Shown piece after piece: positions 20,537-30,755 of a stretch of DNA of 64,000 nt. The DNA comes from Hydrogenophaga sp. (GTDB taxonomy: Bacteria; Pseudomonadota; Gammaproteobacteria; Burkholderiales; Burkholderiaceae_C): positions 248,001 through 312,000 of the forward strand of contig NZ_JAUCZF010000004.1 in NCBI RefSeq assembly GCF_030373245.1, given 5' to 3'. The translations under genes were made by a program, and so were the position numbers. Numbering within the stretch: position 1 is the stretch's first letter; each line of letters begins with the position of its first letter. The notes under the pieces are model-generated. The model was not told the origin of the DNA. It was given only the letters and a program-made list of their open reading frames with translations, and did no database searches.

Positions 20537-21010
20537 ATGAAAACAAGATACCGCGAAACGGCGCACTTGATTGGACTGTGCGCGGGACTTTTGGGGTGCG
20601 TACCTTCGGTCGCCCAGGGCCAGCCTGTGTACCGATGCGAATCGGCGAAAGGCCAGGTGAGCTATTCCAACGAGCCTTGTCTTGGCGCCACCGTCGTCGA
20701 CACCACCCCAACGCAAGGCCTGGACAAGTCCAGTGGTGTGAGCCGCAAGGGGCCAGACGTTCAACGGGAGCAAACCAGGAAAGCGCTGAACGATGCGATG
20801 CGCCCCTTGACTGGCATGTCACACGAGGAAAAGAAGATTTTTGAGCGCCGGTTCAAGCTACCTGCCAGTGTGAAGCTCGAATGCAAATGGCTGGATGCGC
20901 GGCTGCCATCCCAAGAAGCTGCGGTAAAGAATGGTGATGCCAAGAGCCTAGGGGAAGCTGAAACACGGTTGTTTCTGACTCGGAATCGATTCCGCACTCT
21001 GGGCTGTTGA
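20537..21010 (+). CDS. DUF4124-domain exported protein
   Basis: This 157-residue protein has an N-terminal signal sequence (hydrophobic residues about 10-26, possibly a lipobox LLGC) and the short DUF4124 motif VYRCESAKGQVSYSNEPC, seen in many proteobacterial envelope proteins. The C-terminal half is helical and charged and ends in a cysteine. GGAGG lies nine bases before ATG 20537. It is divergent from the Mrr gene with about 60 bases between. The function is unknown. Confidence 0.8.
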   Translation: MKTRYRETAHLIGLCAGLLGCVPSVAQGQPVYRCESAKGQVSYSNEPCLGATVVDTTPTQGLDKSSGVSRKGPDVQREQTRKALNDAMRPLTGMSHEEKKIFERRFKLPASVKLECKWLDARLPSQEAAVKNGDAKSLGEAETRLFLTRNRFRTLGC

Positions 21011-21012
21011 AC

Positions 21013-21624
21013 ATGCAAACATCCGCCACCCGGTTCAACGGCACGCTCAAGAAATGGAACGCTGAGCGAGGCTTTGGCTTTGTGGTGGCCGAGCAGGGCG
21101 GTCAGGAGCTGTTTTTGCATGTGTCCGCCATGCCTCGTGATGGGTGGATACCCGTCATCGGCGAGCCGCTGTCGTTCGAGATCGAACTGGACAAGGAGGG
21201 GCGCAAGCGGGCGGTGATGGTCCGCCGGCCTGGCGTGCCACTCCTCGTCAAGGCGAACCGCAAGGAACAGGCGCGGCACCCAACCCGGCGACCCGATCAG
21301 CGCACCTCTTCAAGTTCTGTAGTCTTCGGCTTAGTGGTGTTGCTGCTGGCTGCCGGCGTGGGCTGGTACGTCTATGGTGAGTACACCAATCGGGCTGAAG
21401 CATCGCGTGCGGCGGCACCCCAGGGCCTGATGAGCGCGAAGTCTGCTGCAACAACGCAGCATATTCAGCAGCAGCCCGCCTTCCATTGCGATGGGCGCCG
21501 GTACTGCTCGCAAATGACGTCCTGCGGCGAAGCCAAGCTGTTCCTGAAGAACTGCCCCGGCATGGAGATGGATGGTGATGGGGACGGCGTGCCTTGCGAG
21601 CAGCAGTGGTGCGTTGGGGGCTGA
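21013..21624 (+). CDS. Cold-shock-domain / transmembrane / Excalibur fusion protein
   Basis: This 203-residue protein joins three parts: an N-terminal cold-shock nucleic-acid-binding domain (residues 5-65, TLKKWNAERGFGFVVAEQGGQELFLHVSAM), one transmembrane helix (about 97-117) and a C-terminal Excalibur calcium-binding domain (about 150-203, CSEMTSC-like CSQMTSCGEAKLFLKNCPGMEMDGDGDGVPCE). The layout puts the cold-shock domain in the cytoplasm and Excalibur outside. ATG 21013 is chosen over the overlapping TTG 21007. The gene overlaps or touches the preceding DUF4124 gene and is followed at its stop codon by repeat copy R1. A fragment of a second such gene lies at 26748-26852. Confidence 0.87.
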   Translation: MQTSATRFNGTLKKWNAERGFGFVVAEQGGQELFLHVSAMPRDGWIPVIGEPLSFEIELDKEGRKRAVMVRRPGVPLLVKANRKEQARHPTRRPDQRTSSSSVVFGLVVLLLAAGVGWYVYGEYTNRAEASRAAAPQGLMSAKSAATTQHIQQQPAFHCDGRRYCSQMTSCGEAKLFLKNCPGMEMDGDGDGVPCEQQWCVGG

Positions 21625-21660
21625 TTGGAATCAGACCCTGAATACGCCGAATACCCTGGG
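21624..21660 (+). repeat. Dispersed repeat copy R1
   Basis: This is a variant copy of the AATTGGAATCTGACCCC repeat family, beginning on the last base of the preceding stop codon (ATTGGAATCAGACCCTG), with two GAATAC-type tail units. It shares orientation with all the other copies. Confidence 0.7.
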
Positions 21661-21704
21661 ATTTCAGTTCACATGCCGCTGGTTTGTGGGCCTGCGACAT
21701 AAGC

Positions 21705-21733
21705 GATTCTTTGGAGTCTTACTCCAAAGAATC
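21705..21733. other. Perfect 13-bp hairpin
   Basis: GATTCTTTGGAGT and its exact reverse complement are separated by CTT. The stem lies between the ends of two convergent genes and could act as a transcription end signal or an element terminus; no T-run follows. Confidence 0.7.
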
Positions 21734-21795
21734 TAAAGGCACTGGCTCAAGGGGCCCATGACCCCTGAAGTGCCCAAGGCGGCCCCAGGACGACT

Positions 21796-22518
21796 CTATT
21801 TGCTGGGCACCACCGGAGCGGGCTGCGTCGTCGGAGCTGGCGACGTGCCCCCTTCCCACCAACGCTGCACCGCCGCACGGTCGAAAGGCGGGAGAGGCGC
21901 GTTGTCAATGGTGGCCGAGGCGAGCGCGGGGAAGTGGGTGCGGTAAAGCGCCAGGTCCTTCTGCGAGAGGTTCTCCGTGGTCACATCCCATGTGCCGCCT
22001 GACAGGCCGGTCACCGACTGGTCAATCAGAGGAACCACCGGCCCGGCGCGAAACTCCTCTCCTTGCCTGGGCCGCAGCTTGGCCGTTACCCGCCCGATGT
22101 AGGTGATGGAGTTCGGCTTCACGTCAAGGTCCATCAACAAAGGCACAACGAAGGTCCCGACAAAAGGGAACGCATTGGCCAGGCCCGTCACATCGCCCAG
22201 CTTGTATTTGCCGGGTTTCAAAGCCATGCGCGTCAGGTAGACGATGCGATCCCCGTCTGCCACCGTGTCTTTGTCCGCATCGAGTTTGAAGTTTTGCCGC
22301 TCTTCCTTGCTTTGGGCATTCGGCAGCTCAAGCTTGACGGCAATAGGCTTCGGGACGTAGCGGCTGTCGTCGGATCGAGAGACCTCAACGGCCATCAGCA
22401 CAACGGACTTTTCGCTGGTGTCGATGGACTTGGCACCCTTGTCAAATGCCATTGGGTTGACGGTTGCGCACCCTGCAAGGGCAACACAGATGGCCATGGC
22501 TCCCAGAAATCGATTCAT
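21796..22518 (-). CDS. Putative lipoprotein of unknown function
   Basis: This 240-residue envelope protein has a lipoprotein signal (hydrophobic stretch then LAGC, lipidated Cys17). The mature part is beta-rich, with an Asp-rich loop (LDADKDTVADGDRIVYLTRMALKPGKYKLGDVTG) and a proline-rich tail. GGAGA precedes the ATG at 22518. It lies between repeat copies R1 and R2. I recognise no domain. Confidence 0.8.
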   Translation of the reverse strand: MNRFLGAMAICVALAGCATVNPMAFDKGAKSIDTSEKSVVLMAVEVSRSDDSRYVPKPIAVKLELPNAQSKEERQNFKLDADKDTVADGDRIVYLTRMALKPGKYKLGDVTGLANAFPFVGTFVVPLLMDLDVKPNSITYIGRVTAKLRPRQGEEFRAGPVVPLIDQSVTGLSGGTWDVTTENLSQKDLALYRTHFPALASATIDNAPLPPFDRAAVQRWWEGGTSPAPTTQPAPVVPSK

Positions 22519-22826
22519 TTTTTCTCCGATGGATGGATCAGGTTGTGACAGAAAAAGACGCTCAGGTTGTTCAGCAAGCCCGAGAGCCGCGACGTTATCA
22601 CTTCAAAACAGCCCTTCCGCCGACACACCGTGCGCAGGCCAAGCGCAGCAGATCAGCGGTCGTCGCCGCCGCCGGACGGCTGGCCGACGATGGCGCGCAG
22701 GTCACGCAACGCCGCGCGCAGGCCATGCAGGTGTTGCGAAGCCGAACCGAAGAGCCGACTTTTGCCCGAAAACAAGTCTCCAAAGCGAGCCAAAACGACA
22801 CGGTTGTTCGTGTGATTTCGCGACCG
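22519..22826. other. Gene-free stretch between lipoprotein gene and repeat R2
   Basis: No supported gene is present. On the minus strand a frame ending QHLHGLRAALRDLRAIVGQPSG looks like the tail of a helical protein whose upstream part is replaced by repeat R2. This could be a truncated gene, but I cannot identify it. Confidence 0.3.
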
Positions 22827-22896
22827 AATTGGAATCTGACCCCAAATAGCCCCAAATAGCCGTGTGACCCCAAATAGCCGGACCCCAAATAGCCGG
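22827..22896 (+). repeat. Dispersed repeat copy R2 with four CCCCAAATAGCC tail units
   Basis: The leader AATTGGAATCTGACCCC is followed by four copies of the 12-mer CCCCAAATAGCC within 60 bases. The tail word AAATAGCC is unique to this copy. Confidence 0.9.
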
Positions 22897-22998
22897 TCGG
22901 TCAACGTCGCGCGAAGCGGTCACCGCCATCAGAGGGAAAACGGAATAACCGCCGCCGCGGTCCGTTGTCAAGGTTCCTTCCCCTTTTCAGGAGCCTTC

Positions 22999-23475
22999 AT
23001 GTTCATTCTGAACACACCACCCCTCGAGCATTCCAAGTTGCGCGGCAGCCGACGGTCATCGGCCCTGTGCAGCGGCGCCGCTGTGCTGGCCATGCTCACG
23101 CTGGCGGGCTGCAGCCACCTCCCGCCTGCTTTCCAGGCGGGTCGCCAACTTCCCGCCACCGAAGTCCGACAGCTGTTTGCCGGGAAAACCGTGACCTCCA
23201 AGAACCTTTCCAACGGCGTGGTTTCAGTGTCCCGCTATGCGCCCAATGGGCAAGTGCGGCAACAGCGACAGGGCCAGCAACGCACAGGCACCTGGCGCGT
23301 CATGCCCGACGGACGCATGTGCCTGCGCATGGAAAACAACAACGAGTCGTGCCGCTGGATCCGGCAAGAGGCCGATGGCCGCTACCAAAAGTACAGCCAG
23401 ACCCATGCCTTTGCTCGCCCGGTCATCACCTACGTCGGACTGACCGCACCCAGAGCGCGTACCAAACCTCTTTGA
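22999..23475 (+). CDS. Small putative lipoprotein
   Basis: This 158-residue protein has a lipobox LAGC (Cys about residue 38), preceded by an unusually long charged N-terminal region. The mature part reads like an SH3- or lipocalin-like strand set (KTVTSKNLSNGVVSVSRYAPNGQV, TGTWRVMPDGRMCLRMENNNESCRWIRQEADGRYQKY) with two cysteines, similar in pattern to DUF995-type proteins. AGGAG lies five bases before ATG 22999. It is flanked by repeat copies R2 and R3. The function is unknown. Confidence 0.78.
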   Translation: MFILNTPPLEHSKLRGSRRSSALCSGAAVLAMLTLAGCSHLPPAFQAGRQLPATEVRQLFAGKTVTSKNLSNGVVSVSRYAPNGQVRQQRQGQQRTGTWRVMPDGRMCLRMENNNESCRWIRQEADGRYQKYSQTHAFARPVITYVGLTAPRARTKPL

Positions 23476-23609
23476 CCTTGGTCATCGTTGCCCATCGGCT
23501 CGCCCCAAGCGTCGGGGCTGGGCTTCTGCCACTTCCGCAGGTTCGGAATCTTCCAGAACGACGCTGTTGAGCGAGGCGGCCGGGCGAAGGCATACAGATG
23601 TGCGTTCTC

Positions 23610-23774
23610 TCAGCCCCTGCCGGCCTGAATCACCGTGAGATCAATTGGAATCTGACCCCGAATTCCACCGACCCCGAATTCCACCGAATTCCAGACCCCG
23701 AATTCCACAATGTTGTCGATCGCCTCAGCGATGTGGCGCAGGTAGTCCGCGGTGCGCAGCGGCTTGCTGCGCAT
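23610..23774 (-). pseudogene. HEPN-type toxin gene truncated by a repeat
   Basis: The frame starts at an ATG overlapping the TGA stop of the MNT gene (TGATG). It encodes MRSKPLRTADYLRHIAEAIDNI, the expected beginning of a DUF86/HEPN (HepT-like) RNase toxin. After about 22 codons the sequence becomes the reverse complement of repeat copy R3, and the frame ends at 23610 after 54 codons. The catalytic R-x4-6-H region of HEPN proteins, normally near the C-terminus, is therefore absent. Confidence 0.72.
23643..23708 (+). repeat. Dispersed repeat copy R3 with CCCCGAATTCCA tail units
   Basis: The leader AATTGGAATCTGACCCC is followed by three CCCCGAATTCCA units and one partial unit. It lies inside the truncated HEPN reading frame. 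Confidence 0.9.
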
Positions 23775-24082
23775 CACAGGCGCACCGCCTCGCGCAGCAC
23801 CTGCTCGCGAAAGCTGGCTGGCAGGCCGTTGGGCGTCAACACATCCACCTCCATGCCCAACAGCGCCTTGAGTTCATGGCGAATGGCGCCAATGTCGAGC
23901 AGCGTGGTCGCTGGTGTGGGTTCCACCAGCAAGTCCAGGTCGCTGCCTTCCACGTCGTCCCCGTGGATCGCCGAGCCAAACACGCTCACGCCCGCCACGC
24001 GGTGACGCAGCGCGATCTCGCGAATCTGCGAGCGGTGTCGGGCAAGTGCGAGGGAGGGACGCATGAGGTCGAGTTTAGCCAT
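23774..24082 (-). CDS. MNT-type nucleotidyltransferase antitoxin
   Basis: This 102-residue minimal nucleotidyltransferase of the MNT class acts, in MntA/HepT-type modules, by AMPylating and silencing the HEPN RNase partner. The motif VFGSAIHGDDVEGSDLDLLVE carries the GSxxxG and the two metal-binding aspartates, and the third acidic residue is in MEVDVLT. The start at 24082 is chosen, and Met 24064 is an alternative. Its partner toxin immediately follows with a TGATG overlap but is truncated, so the antitoxin is orphaned. It lies between repeat copies R3 and R4. Confidence 0.87.
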   Translation of the reverse strand: MAKLDLMRPSLALARHRSQIREIALRHRVAGVSVFGSAIHGDDVEGSDLDLLVEPTPATTLLDIGAIRHELKALLGMEVDVLTPNGLPASFREQVLREAVRL

Positions 24083-24143
24083 TCGGTGGCATTTGCAGTG
24101 CGCGCAGCGACACGCGATTTGCAGGCTCGGGACATAGGCGATC

Positions 24144-24211
24144 AATTGGAATCCGACCCCGAAGTTTCCGAATTCGCGAATTCTGCGAATCCTGTGACCC
24201 CGAATCCCGTC
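24144..24211 (+). repeat. Dispersed repeat copy R4
   Basis: The leader AATTGGAATCCGACCCC is followed by irregular GAATTC and CGAAT units and GACCCCGAATCCC, ending exactly on the stop codon of the adjacent regulator gene. A related GACATAGGCGAT word precedes it; a similar word (GACATAAGCGAT) stands beside the hairpin at 21.7 kb. Confidence 0.8.
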
Positions 24212-25076
24212 ACCGGCCGGTGTCGCTTCCGCTCTTCGCCGAACCATCTCCCAGCCCATCGGCCATCTCGCGCAAGGCGCGGGCGGTCGCTTCATCGCCT
24301 GGGAAGAATGTCTCCAGGGCCAGCTCTTGCAGGGTGATGTCCACCGGCGAACCGAACACCGTGGTGGTGCTGATCAGGTGCAGCATGCCGTCCGGTGTCT
24401 GGTACAGAAAGGGCATGAGCACGCCGGGGTGTTCGCCGTCCAGGCGCTGCGCGGTGTTGGCGGGTTGTGCCGGGTAGGCGATCAGCTCGGTCAGCAGGTC
24501 GGCCAGCGCTTCGTCGCCGGTCTGGTGGATCTGTTGCCGCAGGCGGGCAAACAGGTGTTCGCGCCACTGGTTGAGGTTGGCGATGCGCGGCGCCAGGCCG
24601 CCCGGGTGCAGGCTGATGCGCAGCAGGTTGACACGGCCCTGCAGCAGCTCGGGCGCCACGCCCACCAGCAGCGGCGCGACCATGCGGTTGGCCATCACCA
24701 TGTTCCAGTGGCGGTCGAATGCAACCGCGGGCCAGGGGTGGTGGCTGTCCAGAATGTGCTGCACGGCGCGGCGCGCGGCCTGCATGCTGGGGTCGTCCAT
24801 CGCGTGCTCCCGGTACATCGGCGCATAGCCCGCCGCCACCAGCCAGGCATTGCGCTCGCGCAGCGGCACCGCCAGCCGCTCGCACAGCCTGAGCACCAGC
24901 TCGCGGCTCGGGCTGGCCTTGCCGGTTTCCACGCAGCTCAGGTGGCGGGTCGACATCTCGGCCTCACTGGCGAGATCGAGCTGGCTCAGGCGGCGCAGCT
25001 GGCGCCAGTGGCGCAGGTGATCGCCGACGCTGGCGCGGCGAGAGGGGGGAGCGGCGAGGGCAGGGGCGGCGTGCAT
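24210..25076 (-). CDS. XRE-family regulator with MmyB-like ligand-binding domain
   Basis: This 288-residue regulator has an N-terminal helix-turn-helix (residues 15-75, VGDHLRHWRQLRRLSQLDLASEAEMSTRHLSCVETGKASPSRELVLRLCERLAVPL) followed by a PAS-like MmyB domain (about 105-280; PAVAFDRHWNMVMANRMVAPLL and WREHLFARLRQQ) that binds fatty-acid-like ligands in related proteins. The gene is divergent from a four-helix membrane protein, its probable target. Its stop codon is the edge of repeat R4. Confidence 0.9.
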   Translation of the reverse strand: MHAAPALAAPPSRRASVGDHLRHWRQLRRLSQLDLASEAEMSTRHLSCVETGKASPSRELVLRLCERLAVPLRERNAWLVAAGYAPMYREHAMDDPSMQAARRAVQHILDSHHPWPAVAFDRHWNMVMANRMVAPLLVGVAPELLQGRVNLLRISLHPGGLAPRIANLNQWREHLFARLRQQIHQTGDEALADLLTELIAYPAQPANTAQRLDGEHPGVLMPFLYQTPDGMLHLISTTTVFGSPVDITLQELALETFFPGDEATARALREMADGLGDGSAKSGSDTGR

Positions 25077-25206
25077 GCGCACATGGTAGAGCCCACTCGC
25101 CGGCCTTCCATGACCTGCGGGGTCATGGACCCGCTGCGGGCGCGCGCCGAGCATGGCGGCTCCGCTTCCCTCTTTACAACTTTTCCAACTTTTCAAGGAG
25201 TTCACC

Positions 25207-25608
25207 ATGTTGAATCTGTCTGTCCCCGCCTTGCGTCGTGTGCTTTGGCTGGATGCCGCCGGTGCCCTGGGCATGGCCGTGGCCCATTTCGGGTTTCCCG
25301 GTCTGTTGTCCGATTGGCTTGGCCTGCCCTTGGTCTGGCTGCAGGTGTCGGGCGTGATTGGCTGTGGCACGGTGCTGCTGTCGGGCGCGCTGGCGTCGCG
25401 CGCGCTTCCCCCGGCGGCGGGCGTGCGCCTGCTCGCGGCGGGCAACTTTGTGTGGGTGGCTGCCAGCGTGTGGGCGGTGTGGGGCGCTGGCCTGCCGCTC
25501 ACCAGCCTGGGCGTGGCCTGGGTGCTGCTGCAGGCGGTGTTTGTGTTCGTTCTGGCCGAGCTGGAGTGGGCAGGCAGCCGCCAGCCCCAGCCACTGGCGG
25601 TGGCCTGA
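25207..25608 (+). CDS. Four-helix integral membrane protein
   Basis: This 133-residue protein consists of four hydrophobic helices with short loops and no charged catalytic residues that I recognise. AAGGAG lies seven bases before ATG 25207. It is transcribed divergently from the MmyB-type regulator with 130 bases between, an arrangement common for these regulators and a small membrane or oxidoreductase target. A terminator follows. Both genes lie between repeats R4 and R5. Confidence 0.82.
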   Translation: MLNLSVPALRRVLWLDAAGALGMAVAHFGFPGLLSDWLGLPLVWLQVSGVIGCGTVLLSGALASRALPPAAGVRLLAAGNFVWVAASVWAVWGAGLPLTSLGVAWVLLQAVFVFVLAELEWAGSRQPQPLAVA

Positions 25609-25635
25609 TTGAGCGGGGCTCGCCAGCGCTGCTTG

Positions 25636-25663
25636 AGGGCGCGCGACCAGCGCGCCCTTTCTC
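25636..25663 (+). terminator. Terminator-like hairpin after the four-helix membrane protein
   Basis: AGGGCGCGC pairs with GCGCGCCCT around a five-base loop and is followed by TTTCTCT, 27 bases after the stop codon. The T-run is short but the stem is strong. Confidence 0.75.
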
Positions 25664-25815
25664 TGAGCTCACACCCAGGGGCCCCTGGCCGTGGTCAGTG
25701 CCTCAGGGCACCCCTGGGTTCGATTCAACTTCGGTGCCCTGAAGCGCCGTTTGGTGTTCGGCGCCAGATGGCTTGGGGACTCGGTGGACTTTCAAGACGG
25801 TGTCTGACTCCGGTG

Positions 25816-25930
25816 CGTGACCCCGATGCGGATGCGGTTTGCGGACTCAATAATTGGAATCTGACCCCGAATACCGACCCCGAATACCGACCCAGTGCAG
25901 TGACCCCGATGCAGCGATGCAGTGCAGAGT
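25816..25930 (+). repeat. Dispersed repeat copy R5 with CCCCGAATACCGA and GATGC tail units
   Basis: The leader AATTGGAATCTGACCCC starts at 25852 and is followed by tandem CCCCGAATACCGA units, then GACCCCGATGCAG and GCAG/TGCAG words. A detached GACCCCGATGCGG unit stands before the leader at 25818. The stretch 25609-25971 holds only this repeat, the terminator and R6. Confidence 0.85.
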
Positions 25931-25958
25931 GTTACCCCTGCGACTATGGTGACCAAGT

Positions 25959-25982
25959 AAAGAATCTGACCTCAAACTTTCC
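25959..25982 (+). repeat. Degenerate repeat copy R6
   Basis: AAGAATCTGACCTCAAAC is a weak match to the repeat leader. It contributes the stop codon of the adjacent minus-strand membrane gene (TCA at 25972). Confidence 0.5.
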
Positions 25983-26331
25983 TATCTAAAGAATCGGCAA
26001 AAGCGTGAGAAATGCCAGCAAAAATAAGACCAACAACCATTAGTCCAAGAGATGCCGGTATTGAATCAAACATATTGTAAAAACCAATCCAGTCAGACGG
26101 TTGATGTGCCCAATCAATATTGATATATTTAAGTACATCAATTATAGAGTATGACACCCGAAAACCAGAGCGAAAATAAACATAGATTTGCCAACCAAAA
26201 ATAAAAAGGCCAATCGTAAAAAGAATACCCAAAAGCGATAATCCGATAATGACTAAAAATGAAAGGACGCCCACCACAAATCTGTAGACCAATAAAAAAC
26301 ATTGTTTGCAGAAACGGGCGAAACCTGACAT
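25972..26331 (-). CDS. AT-rich small membrane protein
   Basis: This 119-residue protein has two strongly hydrophobic segments near the N-terminus (about residues 12-50) and a further helix near the C-terminus. AAGGAGAG six bases upstream supports ATG 26331 rather than longer readings. Base composition is far lower in GC than in flanking genes, which indicates recent transfer. It lies between repeats R6 and R7, near the AT-rich KAP NTPase gene. I recognise no family. Confidence 0.65.
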   Translation of the reverse strand: MSGFARFCKQCFLLVYRFVVGVLSFLVIIGLSLLGILFTIGLFIFGWQIYVYFRSGFRVSYSIIDVLKYINIDWAHQPSDWIGFYNMFDSIPASLGLMVVGLIFAGISHAFADSLDRKV

Positions 26332-26724
26332 AAAGCTCTCCTTTGAGATTTCAGGCAATACGATATTTCTCAAGACTACCATCCCCTTTGCTGCGACAAC
26401 CCAGTTAGGGGGGGCGTCCCTTACCGCTCCATTTCTGACCATCTTTTTCATATACCGCTACTGTGAGGGTTTTACGGGCCTTATCATCTTTTGGCAGTCG
26501 AGATGCCTTACGCTAAAAAATGTCATTCTGGGAAAAGTTGAACTCCTGAATGATGTATTTCACCTCTTCAAGCTTACTTGCTCGTCCCTCTACAGGCAAC
26601 AGTCAAGACCTGCCCCCGATGTTGTTGACAGGAGCTAAGTTGAGCACGAGTAAGCGCCTCTGCTCTGTGTGGAGGCCCGGCTTCGATGCAGTGGCTGGTA
26701 ATTGGGGCAAGTGGAGCGGGGGTT
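26332..26724. other. Gene-free, partly AT-rich stretch
   Basis: No supported coding region is present. The left half continues the low-GC composition of the preceding gene, and the right half returns to the genome average before repeat R7. It probably contains a composition junction of acquired DNA. Confidence 0.4.
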
Positions 26725-26747
26725 AATTGGAATCTGACCCCGAATAC
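26725..26747 (+). repeat. Dispersed repeat copy R7
   Basis: AATTGGAATCTGACCCC followed by GAATAC is an exact match to the leader. It joins without a gap to the Excalibur gene fragment. Confidence 0.9.
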
Positions 26748-26852
26748 AAGGCGAAGCTGTTTCTGAAGAACTGCCCGGGCATGGAAATGGACGGGGATGG
26801 CGACGGGATTCCGTGCGAGCAGCAGTGGTGCGCGGGGCTGTTCGGTGGATAA
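26748..26852 (+). pseudogene. Excalibur-domain gene fragment
   Basis: The bases encode KAKLFLKNCPGMEMDGDGDG, then IPCEQQWCAGLFGG and a stop, closely matching the C-terminus of the cold-shock/Excalibur protein at 21013-21624 (AKLFLKNC through CEQQWC). Everything upstream is missing and is replaced by repeat R7, whose frame happens to be open into the fragment. Repeat R8 starts four bases after the stop. This is the debris of a second Excalibur gene. Confidence 0.85.
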
Positions 26853-26856
26853 GTGG

Positions 26857-26896
26857 AATTGGAATCTACCCCCAATATCTTGACCCCCGAATATCC
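26857..26896 (+). repeat. Dispersed repeat copy R8
   Basis: AATTGGAATCTACCCCCAAT is followed by TTGACCCCCGAATATCC. It lies between the end of the Excalibur fragment and the stop codon of the KAP NTPase gene. Confidence 0.8.
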
Positions 26897-28815
26897 TAAT
26901 TTCCCGGCTTCTTTGAAATCTCGTTTTTGAAATTCTCTAGTGAGCTAATATACTCATCTAGTTTTGGTGAAAACCATGCTCTTGCTGTGTAGTGGGAAAG
27001 ATGTCTCGGAGTTTTTCTGTTCAGCAAAGAATTTTTGGACATTTCACCTTTTAGCTTCACGAGAAATGGTAACTCCAAGATCAACCATTCTGCGTAAAGG
27101 TTGGGATGTGTAAATCTTTCAGTGAAAGAATCTTGAACTAGTTCTTGTTCAGATACCTGTAGATTGATAAACTTTCTATGAAACTGAAGTGCAGATACGT
27201 GATGAAATACAGGATCATCAGAAAACCATACTTGTTCTTCTGAGTTTCTCGCAATTTGCTTGGCCCACCGTGCCACATCGGTATCAAGCATCGCAAGCCA
27301 AGGGGTGATCTGCCGCCGAATCCATGAGCGTCTGGCGGTTGTGATTATCGCCTTCGCGTTATTAATAAATTTTCGGAATTCAATTGAGTCACGAGCTGTG
27401 AATCCAAGACCGAACGCACTCCCGTGCCTTAGTAATTCATTGAGCTCTCGTTGAGATGGTGGCTTCATTGCGCCCTTGGAGATGGCAACTTTTATCGATT
27501 TAAGTGCAACAATCTCAATTTGACGCATTGATTGGCGAATCAATTTGATTCTTGATAAATTTAGAAGAATCGCTGCTGAGTGGATCAACTCCGCAAGATC
27601 AAAATTCTTCACTGACTTCATTCCAGCAAAAGTTTCACTTGCTAGTTTTTCAAAATCACTGTTGCTGAGCGAGCGAAGATACCAAAGCCGTCTCCATGCT
27701 GGAGTTGATTCGTCTGCAAGAAGATGGCTGTCGCGCAGAGCATCGGTTGCAGAAACCACGGATAAGTTTCCGGTCTCAAAAAACTCACGAAATGCCGATG
27801 GAGGAAGAGCTAAAGGTTGAGCGTATTCAAGTCCATGTCGCTTCAGTACTTTATCTTTCTCGCGCTCAGGCACTGATTGATCGCTGCTGCTCTTCAGCTC
27901 AAGGTATGCGGACCAATTTGTTTCGCCAAGTTCTCCTATGTCCTCGCTTGTTAGGCTGCCTGATCGATACTCGATTGATAATGTGATGCAGTCATTGATA
28001 AGTTGCTTTTGAAATTTTTCATTTGTACTAATCTGTTTTTTATCAAGACTATCCCAAAGATCGCAAAAGTCAAAAATCGCTTGTCGCAGTTGGCGAAGAT
28101 TTTGGTATCCGGCTCGATTGAAAATGGCCAGCAGTTGAGTTTTGTTTTTGTCTAGAAATTCATTACCTGCACGACTGCTGGTCTCGGTCAGAAAGTGCTG
28201 AATGGCGCCATCCGCATCAGGTTGTATCTGAAAGGTTCTTCCAATTACTTTTTCTTTTATTTTTTTGAAGCCAATCTCGGGAGTAGATAGTTGCGATGAC
28301 TCGTTTGCAAGGATGATGACTCTGTATCCGTCATGTTCTACAAACTGATTGATGAAGCCCAGCGCATCTTCAATCTTCATGCTTGATCTCTCTAGATCGT
28401 CAAAAACTAAAATGGCACCCTCGGTTGAAGCCCATTTTTCAATCTCTGGTAATGAGATTTGCCAGCTACCTTCGTCTGATCCGTCTCCGTTTAAATCAAT
28501 TTTTATAGTACCCTTGATGAGGCTTTTAGTTATGCCCCAAGCTCGCTTCGCTGTTTGGCTAGCTAGCCGCGGATGAATTTGTGCAAAAAATTGATCTTTG
28601 ATTTCGGAGATTTTTGAGATGCCAAAGAAACTTACATAGAGTACACGTTTATCTCTCTTTTCGAGTTCCTTTCTATAATTTTCAATGAACCAGGTCTTTC
28701 CACTGCCCCAAGGCCCTCTGAGCATTACCGCGTAGCTAGGTTTGGCATCTTGATTGCAGTATCTATCTAGGAATATTTTTATTGACTCATTGTGATCTTG
28801 TGCAGTCAGAATCAT
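26896..28815 (-). CDS. KAP-family P-loop NTPase
   Basis: This is a 639-residue ATPase. A clear Walker A (GPWGSGKT, residues 34-41) lies close to the N-terminus, and Walker B (ILVFDDLER) is at about 135-143. NESSQ and a sensor-like RQLRQAIFDF follow, a pattern of the KAP P-loop family, which includes the phage-T7 exclusion protein PifA. The long C-terminal region (about 290-639) is helical, without a recognised domain or membrane segment. The gene is markedly AT-rich with different codon use from glnS beside it, indicating transfer. It stands alone, beyond repeat R8. A defence role is a reasonable inference, not shown. Confidence 0.85.
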   Translation of the reverse strand: MILTAQDHNESIKIFLDRYCNQDAKPSYAVMLRGPWGSGKTWFIENYRKELEKRDKRVLYVSFFGISKISEIKDQFFAQIHPRLASQTAKRAWGITKSLIKGTIKIDLNGDGSDEGSWQISLPEIEKWASTEGAILVFDDLERSSMKIEDALGFINQFVEHDGYRVIILANESSQLSTPEIGFKKIKEKVIGRTFQIQPDADGAIQHFLTETSSRAGNEFLDKNKTQLLAIFNRAGYQNLRQLRQAIFDFCDLWDSLDKKQISTNEKFQKQLINDCITLSIEYRSGSLTSEDIGELGETNWSAYLELKSSSDQSVPEREKDKVLKRHGLEYAQPLALPPSAFREFFETGNLSVVSATDALRDSHLLADESTPAWRRLWYLRSLSNSDFEKLASETFAGMKSVKNFDLAELIHSAAILLNLSRIKLIRQSMRQIEIVALKSIKVAISKGAMKPPSQRELNELLRHGSAFGLGFTARDSIEFRKFINNAKAIITTARRSWIRRQITPWLAMLDTDVARWAKQIARNSEEQVWFSDDPVFHHVSALQFHRKFINLQVSEQELVQDSFTERFTHPNLYAEWLILELPFLVKLKGEMSKNSLLNRKTPRHLSHYTARAWFSPKLDEYISSLENFKNEISKKPGN

Positions 28816-28889
28816 GCCACCCCCTGGGAATCATATTTTTCGCGAAGCACAAAAGTTTAAAGTTGGAGCGAAACGTAAAAATTGGACCG

Positions 28890-30755
<1,866 letters not shown>

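Follow-up and report, generated by a model that had tools for sequence, protein, structure and literature searches.

TIR-associated tyrosine transposases (TIRYTs, or TIRtrons; TIR, terminal inverted repeat) belong mostly to TnpA_REP subclass 2.1, which matches group 1 of the REP-associated tyrosine transposases (RAYTs) (PMC3733652, PMC6006769), and TIRs of the GGGGWSAS type are already known (Di Nocera 2013). In these papers, the Y1 HUH gene lies between inverted repeats, and copies of the TIR occur elsewhere as singles, dimers and groups. RAYT-type transposases are generally regarded as domesticated enzymes that spread nothing larger than tiny repeats (PMC8049555, PMC8266576). Here we describe a stretch of 64 kb from a Hydrogenophaga sp. 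assembly of 3.86 Mb (10 contigs, ~91% complete), referred to below as the window (contig C4, positions 248001-312000). It contains an array of co-directional copies of a 17-mer, which is the TIR of a Y1 transposase encoded elsewhere in the same genome. Small genes of different kinds lie between the copies. The published accounts, in the portions seen, give repeat families and differ in this from the TIR-bounded gene blocks, co-directional arrays and junction duplications found here. In a literature search by titles and the beginnings of abstracts, covering mainly open-access journal papers, none of those listed dealt with TIRYT repeats as boundaries of gene blocks, and the term TIRYT itself occurred in just two of the papers covered.

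The repeat array and the resident transposase

The window contains seven copies of AATTGGAATCTGACCCC at up to 3 mismatches, all on the + strand within 5.3 kb (21623..26873). They start at 21623, 22827, 23643, 24144, 25852, 26725 and 26857, with 3, 0, 0, 1, 0, 0 and 2 mismatches, respectively, compared with a mean of 0.10 and a maximum of 3 copies in 100 shuffles of the window. A partial copy, GAATCTGACCTC, is present at 25962-25976, and no copy was found in the rest of the window at the same threshold. These results confirm that the array of co-directional repeats is real. An initial sequence-only reading of the window had reported seven clear copies and a weak one, in one orientation within 5.3 kb and with no full copies elsewhere in the window. 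Orientation, extent and absence elsewhere all hold, while "seven clear" was generous, four copies being exact and three degenerate.

The genome-wide search that this reading proposed returned 16 copies in the whole assembly at up to 2 mismatches, 12 of them exact, and none of the reversed 17-mer at the same threshold. Two of the 16 flank a transposase gene. A single Y1_Tnp gene was found in the ~91%-complete assembly, at C2:131433-132131 (232 aa) beside gltB, with exact 17-mers facing outward on both sides (GGGGTCAGATTCCAATT at C2:131375 and AATTGGAATCTGACCCC at 132223). These outward exact copies on both sides of its gene identify the 17-mer of the window as the TIR of the resident transposase, a RAYT/TIRYT enzyme (HUH, Y1). 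The earlier suggestion of a Y1/RAYT-type transposase acting from elsewhere is thus strongly supported.

The transposase matches the Y1_Tnp profile with 46.8 bits (cut-off 23) and NCBIfam NF047646, REP-associated tyrosine transposase, with 83.7 (cut-off 80), contains the HUH motif as HFH at residue 60, and has a weak match to the TnpArep structure PDB 4er8 (E 0.0089). Subclass 2.1 (RAYT group 1) has a helix-turn-helix-like extension at the C-terminus. About 90 residues extend beyond the NF047646 core here, but Pfam at E ≤0.01 gives Y1_Tnp only, and the protein is at most a candidate member of that subclass. The inverted repeats around the gene contain GGGGTCAG and are of the GGGGWSAS type. Together, transposase and repeats fit the TIRYT/TIRtron class as described in PMC3733652 and PMC6006769. 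When folded, the TIR at the right end of the transposase gave a hairpin of 8 bp (z −2.5), and three TIR copies of the array folded weakly or not at all (five oligonucleotides folded, the fifth an idealised form).

Comparison with REPIN/RAYT systems shows both likeness and difference. Shared features are a transposase that is nearly always single in its genome and short inverted pairs of end repeats (27 pairs, 26-125 bp). In contrast, the repeat described here carries no GTAG tag and has few copies (16), and a stable hairpin was seen only in the right end of the transposase among the copies folded. REPIN-style miniatures are present, as judged from the 27 divergent pairs closer than 150 bp and from a 48-bp pair inserted into otherwise aligned sequence (L271 compared with L181).

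The transposase gene is present in 61 of 67 genomes of the genus (63 matches at E ≤1e-10), with one match in 59 genomes and a second, partial match in two, and it occurs in all 44 genomes that are ≥90% complete and ≤5% contaminated. The exact 17-mer occurs in 25 of the 67. Thirty loci out of the 63 matches were examined, and in 19 of them the transposase lies between two outward-facing TIRs at up to 4 mismatches; counted by side, a TIR in the expected orientation is present at 47 of 60 and one facing the wrong way at 3 of 60. The transposase seems to stay in place, because it adjoins gltB-like upstream sequence in 22 of these 30 loci. In named genomes the exact 17-mer was found at no fewer than 118 loci (≥118). 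Among the matches listed, all but two loci belong to Comamonadaceae, other Burkholderiales or uncultured betaproteobacteria. The 17-mer also occurs in contigs filed under an Oscillospiraceae and a Rickettsia typhi metagenome-assembled genome (L255, L269), possibly mis-binned betaproteobacterial DNA. Single sites elsewhere include a degenerate inverted TIR pair with similar surroundings in two genomes (C6:256142-256224, L023; L109:14123-14183), within a gene that we take to be uvrA, and a TIR at C7:915 (L020), near a contig end, that interrupts a stretch presumably of RHS repeats.

Orientation of repeat pairs and repeated tails

Over all loci collected, we examined the geometry of TIR pairs separated by no more than 4 kb. 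Divergent pairs fall into 27 REPIN-like pairs closer than 150 bp, 26 pairs of 600-1000 bp, and three others, one of which (L059) encloses the transposase. All but one of the 26 enclose the transposase, the exception being a 630-bp pair in L196. Co-directional pairs number 29 at 150-4000 bp, one of them enclosing the transposase (L223), and 11 at less than 150 bp; a single pair is convergent. Once pairs closer than 150 bp and pairs around the transposase are set aside, 32 remain, of which 28 are co-directional and 4 opposed (binomial p 2e-05). Counted by locus, co-directional pairs occur in 16 loci and opposed pairs in 4, two loci having both (p 0.012; both p values were worked out by hand).

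The sequence next to the repeat is also patterned. At 222 unique exact sites, CCCC is most often followed by AATT (98), GATT (42) or CATT (25), letters able to pair with the AATT on the other side of the repeat. In 18 of the 222 sites, the tail repeats ACCCC together with the next 5 bases, compared with a mean of 2.2 and a maximum of 7 in 200 permutations; one of these tails (L270) is a second complete TIR. Examples of the duplicated units are TGACCCC GAATATC, GACCCC GAATTCCACC and CCC GATTATCC. The linkers, inspected by eye, are mostly suffixes of the TIR, a few with 1-3 extra letters, as expected of duplications straddling a TIR junction. Flanks of TIRs are more alike within than between arrays (22 arrays; none of 5000 permutations reached the observed value), a likeness to which genus-specific repeats contribute.

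Blocks between the repeats and their relatives

In the window, the array is preceded by a cold-shock and Excalibur-domain gene (21007..21624, +; Pfam CSD and Excalibur), whose stop codon runs into TIR copy 1 (21623..21639, +, 3 mismatches). All TIR copies were located by the 17-mer scan, and the start codons of the genes in blocks 2, 3b, 4a and 4b are putative. Block 1 contains a gene that the sequence-only reading labelled lipoprotein-like (21796..22518, −; no Pfam or NCBIfam match); its relative in G066, at 84% DNA identity, has no TIR within 1.5 kb at up to 3 mismatches. TIR copy 2 (22827..22843, +, exact) has a tail of four AAATAGCC units reaching 22895, and is followed by a DUF995 gene in block 2 (22999..23475, +; PF06191, 2.2e-05). 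The tail of copy 3 (23643..23659, +, exact), made of repeated GACCCC plus GAATTCCACC, reaches 23709, where block 3 begins. What had been read as an MNT/HEPN module there does include an MNT nucleotidyltransferase gene (block 3b, 23774..24064, −; PF18765/PF01909), but of the HepT-like (HEPN) gene only the first 22 codons remain (block 3a, 23709..23774, −; from reading frame and homology), truncated exactly at the TIR tail. Homology to relatives begins at 23710 (G016, G108), 23719 (G014) or 23731 (G049), and the complete HepT-like gene is present in G108 (PF01934, 1e-28).

TIR copy 4 (24144..24160, +, 1 mismatch), with a degenerate tail to ~24201, precedes an MmyB-like (MLTR) regulator gene (block 4a, 24210..25076, −; PF17765) and a small membrane protein (block 4b, 25207..25608, +; an open reading frame (ORF) with no Pfam match). 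Copy 5 (25852..25868, +, exact; tail of repeated GACCCC plus GAATACC) is followed by block 5, an AT-rich ORF that the sequence-only reading took for a membrane protein (25972..26451, −; no Pfam or NCBIfam match). Between copy 6 (26725..26741, +, exact) and copy 7 (26857..26873, +, 2 mismatches) lies block 6 (26749..26852, +), described before as a gene fragment and now identified by DNA homology as the 3' end of a second Excalibur-domain gene resembling the one before the array. A KAP-family NTPase gene (26896..28815, −; PF07693), previously placed between repeats, lies beyond the last one. It adjoins a gene that we take from its sequence to be glnS (28890..30755, −), an ORF with matches in 52 of the 67 genus genomes, which forms the conserved right flank of a variable interval.

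Accessory genes concentrate in this interval, between the Excalibur gene and glnS (21625-28889 in the window), which was compared in eleven or twelve members of the genus (L110, L118-L128) and ranges from ~1 to 13 kb. Single genomes contain FRG, AAA_15/AAA_21, nSTAND-like or DNA-methylase genes in it, and the window contains the KAP NTPase. In G030, where the Excalibur protein is 91% identical to that of the window, the stop codon runs into AGTTGGATTCTGACCCC, followed by an FRG-domain gene and then glnS, and the interval measures ~1.1 kb against 7.3 kb in the window. The same junction in G015 has two TIRs with GAATATC tails and then an AAA_15-type gene; in G032, an Excalibur 3' fragment comes after a TIR.

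To ask more generally how homology behaves at TIRs, we compared 76 loci with lone TIRs with their relatives. Of 1047 homology ends, 86 lie within 60 bp of a TIR, compared with a mean of 19 and a maximum of 37 in 38 shifted controls; ends near TIRs are 4.5 times commoner than near shifted positions. The 1.6-kb block 24202-25812 recurs between TIRs in a second species, G062, at 88.8% identity, in a gap between Phage_holin_4_2-type and NERD/UvrD-helicase-type genes (family names taken from relatives) that measures 2428 bp against 91 bp in G015; the left edge of the insert is 169 bp away from the TIR. As proof of long-range movement this block was dropped, the gap being a different one within the same wider neighbourhood as that of the window. 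A mazEF block and a neighbouring block occur in swapped order in Extensimonas perlucida and E. vulgaris; of their four edges in E. perlucida, three fall 7-29 bp past a TIR, and no TIR is near the fourth. A 2.6-kb block of E. perlucida that starts 9 bp past a TIR lies elsewhere in E. vulgaris, without TIRs. Either a TIR or a REPIN-like pair sits at roughly the same position within similar sequence in three genomes (L111, L113 and L116 in G015, G029 and G049). No clear empty site was found around C7:144765.

Among 28 co-directional blocks, 13 carry toxin-antitoxin-type genes, by our own reading of hand-picked ORFs and with no matched control. Two of the 13, both in L098, are counted on an MNT match below the cut-off and on DNA similarity to an AbiEii block, respectively; DUF3368 and DUF6036 are presumed to be of toxin-antitoxin type. 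A DUF2442 gene (L045) and the PIN gene of L098, which is sited before the first TIR and outside the blocks, are not counted. The L246 array contains hipBA, an MNT gene and ccdAB consecutively, and the L098 array has an MNT and an AbiEii-like block downstream of the PIN gene. Other arrays contain AbiEii with a helix-turn-helix gene (L101), DUF6036 (L102), brnA (L199), mazEF (L196), hipA and DUF3368 (L258), and an antidote/Gp49 pair (L279). In the genome of the window, a second TIR cluster, at C4:43893-44921, has hicAB on one side and an antidote/Gp49 pair on the other.

The claim is restricted to blocks between co-directional TIRs. Enrichment of toxin-antitoxin genes around all lone TIRs was considered and is not supported: among the 25 commonest families, the neighbouring proteins (100 of 190 eligible) included HTH_3 (5), PemK (2) and PIN (2), and the far proteins (100 of 310) included PIN (2).

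Assembly of the arrays and its meaning

We tentatively propose that the TIRYT joins TIR-ended DNA beside existing TIRs and so builds arrays of unrelated blocks, a reading that we regard as nearly as apt to be right as wrong. The enzyme would nick single-stranded TIR DNA just 3' of ...GACCCC. A segment ending in the cut TIR, with an arbitrary 5' end, would then be joined next to an existing TIR, and the other side would be repaired. Every block would end in a TIR of one orientation, and its opposite end could cut through genes, as may have happened to the HepT-like gene and the Excalibur fragment. Junction cutting and faulty repair might leave short duplications straddling the junction (TGACCCC+X, GACCCC+X), and blocks that aid persistence, such as toxin-antitoxin pairs, would accumulate. 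The enzymes of IS200/IS605 and of one-ended transposition (IS91/ISCR) are also of the HUH type. The proposed combination of one exact and one arbitrary end resembles these, with the difference that both ends of the transposase here carry the same sequence inverted and that the gene keeps its gltB-like neighbour in 22 of 30 loci.

Several observations weigh against this proposal, and some of them favour another explanation, in which the TIRs are ordinary TIRYT miniature insertions in permissive gaps where toxin-antitoxin and defence genes gather independently. This alternative is quite possible, if on the doubtful side. In six relatives (G016, G048, G049, G012, G014, G044) the interval between Excalibur and glnS varies in gene content while lacking any TIR at up to 3 mismatches, and in G052 the gap that holds the array in G062, between holin-like and NERD/helicase genes, contains helix-turn-helix and AbiEii genes and no TIR. 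Such places thus collect accessory genes anyway, and the TIRs might be mere passengers. In the comparison of cassette content that the sequence-only reading proposed, gene content changes just past the repeat in a close relative, and the same gaps take up such genes without TIRs in others. The gene pair of block 24202-25812 has no TIR within 1.5 kb at up to 3 mismatches in G102, G225, G007 and G014, relatives of other block genes likewise lack a nearby TIR in other genomes, and the proteins next to lone TIRs are mostly ordinary, with little toxin-antitoxin excess. The excess of homology ends is due in part to plain insertion of one TIR or of a REPIN-like pair, of which the 48-bp insertion is an instance, and may be raised further by matches to the TIR itself. 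A further opposed pair in G008:C100, just over 4 kb, lies outside the count. Block 6 was not copied recently from the Excalibur gene of the array, being closer to G015 (92.6% over 26749-26895) than to the copy at 21007 (85%). One-ended copying in Extensimonas, suggested by a 336-bp block with 94.8% identity to the end of a 3-kb block, was dropped, a 320-bp piece being a dispersed genus repeat. Two dispersed repeat families, one of ~184 bp and another of ~320 bp that ends in the TIR, are present in many copies per genome in Extensimonas (L196, G461, G462). Finally, no movement of blocks was observed. The earlier view of an array that arose through repeated insertion or recombination at one shared sequence has indirect support: other species also have co-directional arrays, homology tends to end near TIRs, one block lies between TIRs in two species, and gene content in a close relative changes just past the repeat. 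Gene movement by the enzyme does not follow from these. Independent insertions, however, predict both orientations, contrary to the 28 of 32 co-directional pairs, and a general strand bias is not evident: distant TIRs up to 300 kb apart on one contig gave 2 concordant and 5 discordant pairs by eye, in a count that leaves out miniatures, transposase ends and the mixed C4 cluster. Together with this co-directionality, the truncation of the HepT-like gene at the TIR tail and the swapped Extensimonas blocks are not explained well by passenger TIRs, and the recurrence of one block between TIRs in two species also argues against them.

The arrays could instead have grown by homologous or illegitimate recombination between TIRs, through tandem duplication or ectopic exchange, with the TIRYT having only spread the repeats. 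Excalibur 3' ends at both ends of the array, tails of short tandem duplications that look like recombination or slippage, and the greater likeness of TIR flanks within arrays, to which genus-specific repeats add, are all in keeping with this. The blocks, in contrast, are unrelated to each other save for a few partial repeats, and 17 bp is short for RecA-type recombination; we consider this origin improbable. An integron cassette array, or its remnant, would share the rows of small unrelated genes, many of toxin-antitoxin type, the single repeat and the single orientation. Toxin-antitoxin cargo is typical of chromosomal integrons, and the integron integrase model gives two matches above its cut-off in this genome, at C9:112-1068 (contig end, L330) and C1:86259-87215 (internal stop, L331), with attC-like folded sites near both. 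A simple attC scan for which these served as a positive control found no such site in the window at 21000-29000 or in the arrays L098, L099, L196 and L246, in agreement with the sequence-only reading, which had noted neither integrase nor attC-like sites. The window has no integrase match, the two integron stretches contain no TIR (up to 3 mismatches), block genes face both ways, and blocks cut genes. We reject the integron reading as exceedingly improbable.

Joining of TIR-ended DNA by the TIRYT would bear on the question of why nearly every genome of a genus retains one RAYT. Because its TIRs bound similar, often toxin-antitoxin, blocks in related bacteria, our results suggest that a supposedly tame RAYT/TIRYT helps assemble accessory genes. 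The broader idea, that a domesticated, usually single-copy RAYT/TIRYT runs integron-like gene capture across Comamonadaceae, with its end repeats as fixed joining sites where TIR-ended DNA of arbitrary 5' extent accumulates in one orientation into chromosomal arrays of toxin-antitoxin and other accessory genes, is rather unlikely as it stands. If true, end repeats serving as joining sites for accessory genes would make the enzyme worth keeping for the host, and bacteria would have a second cassette-like route of gene capture besides integrons.

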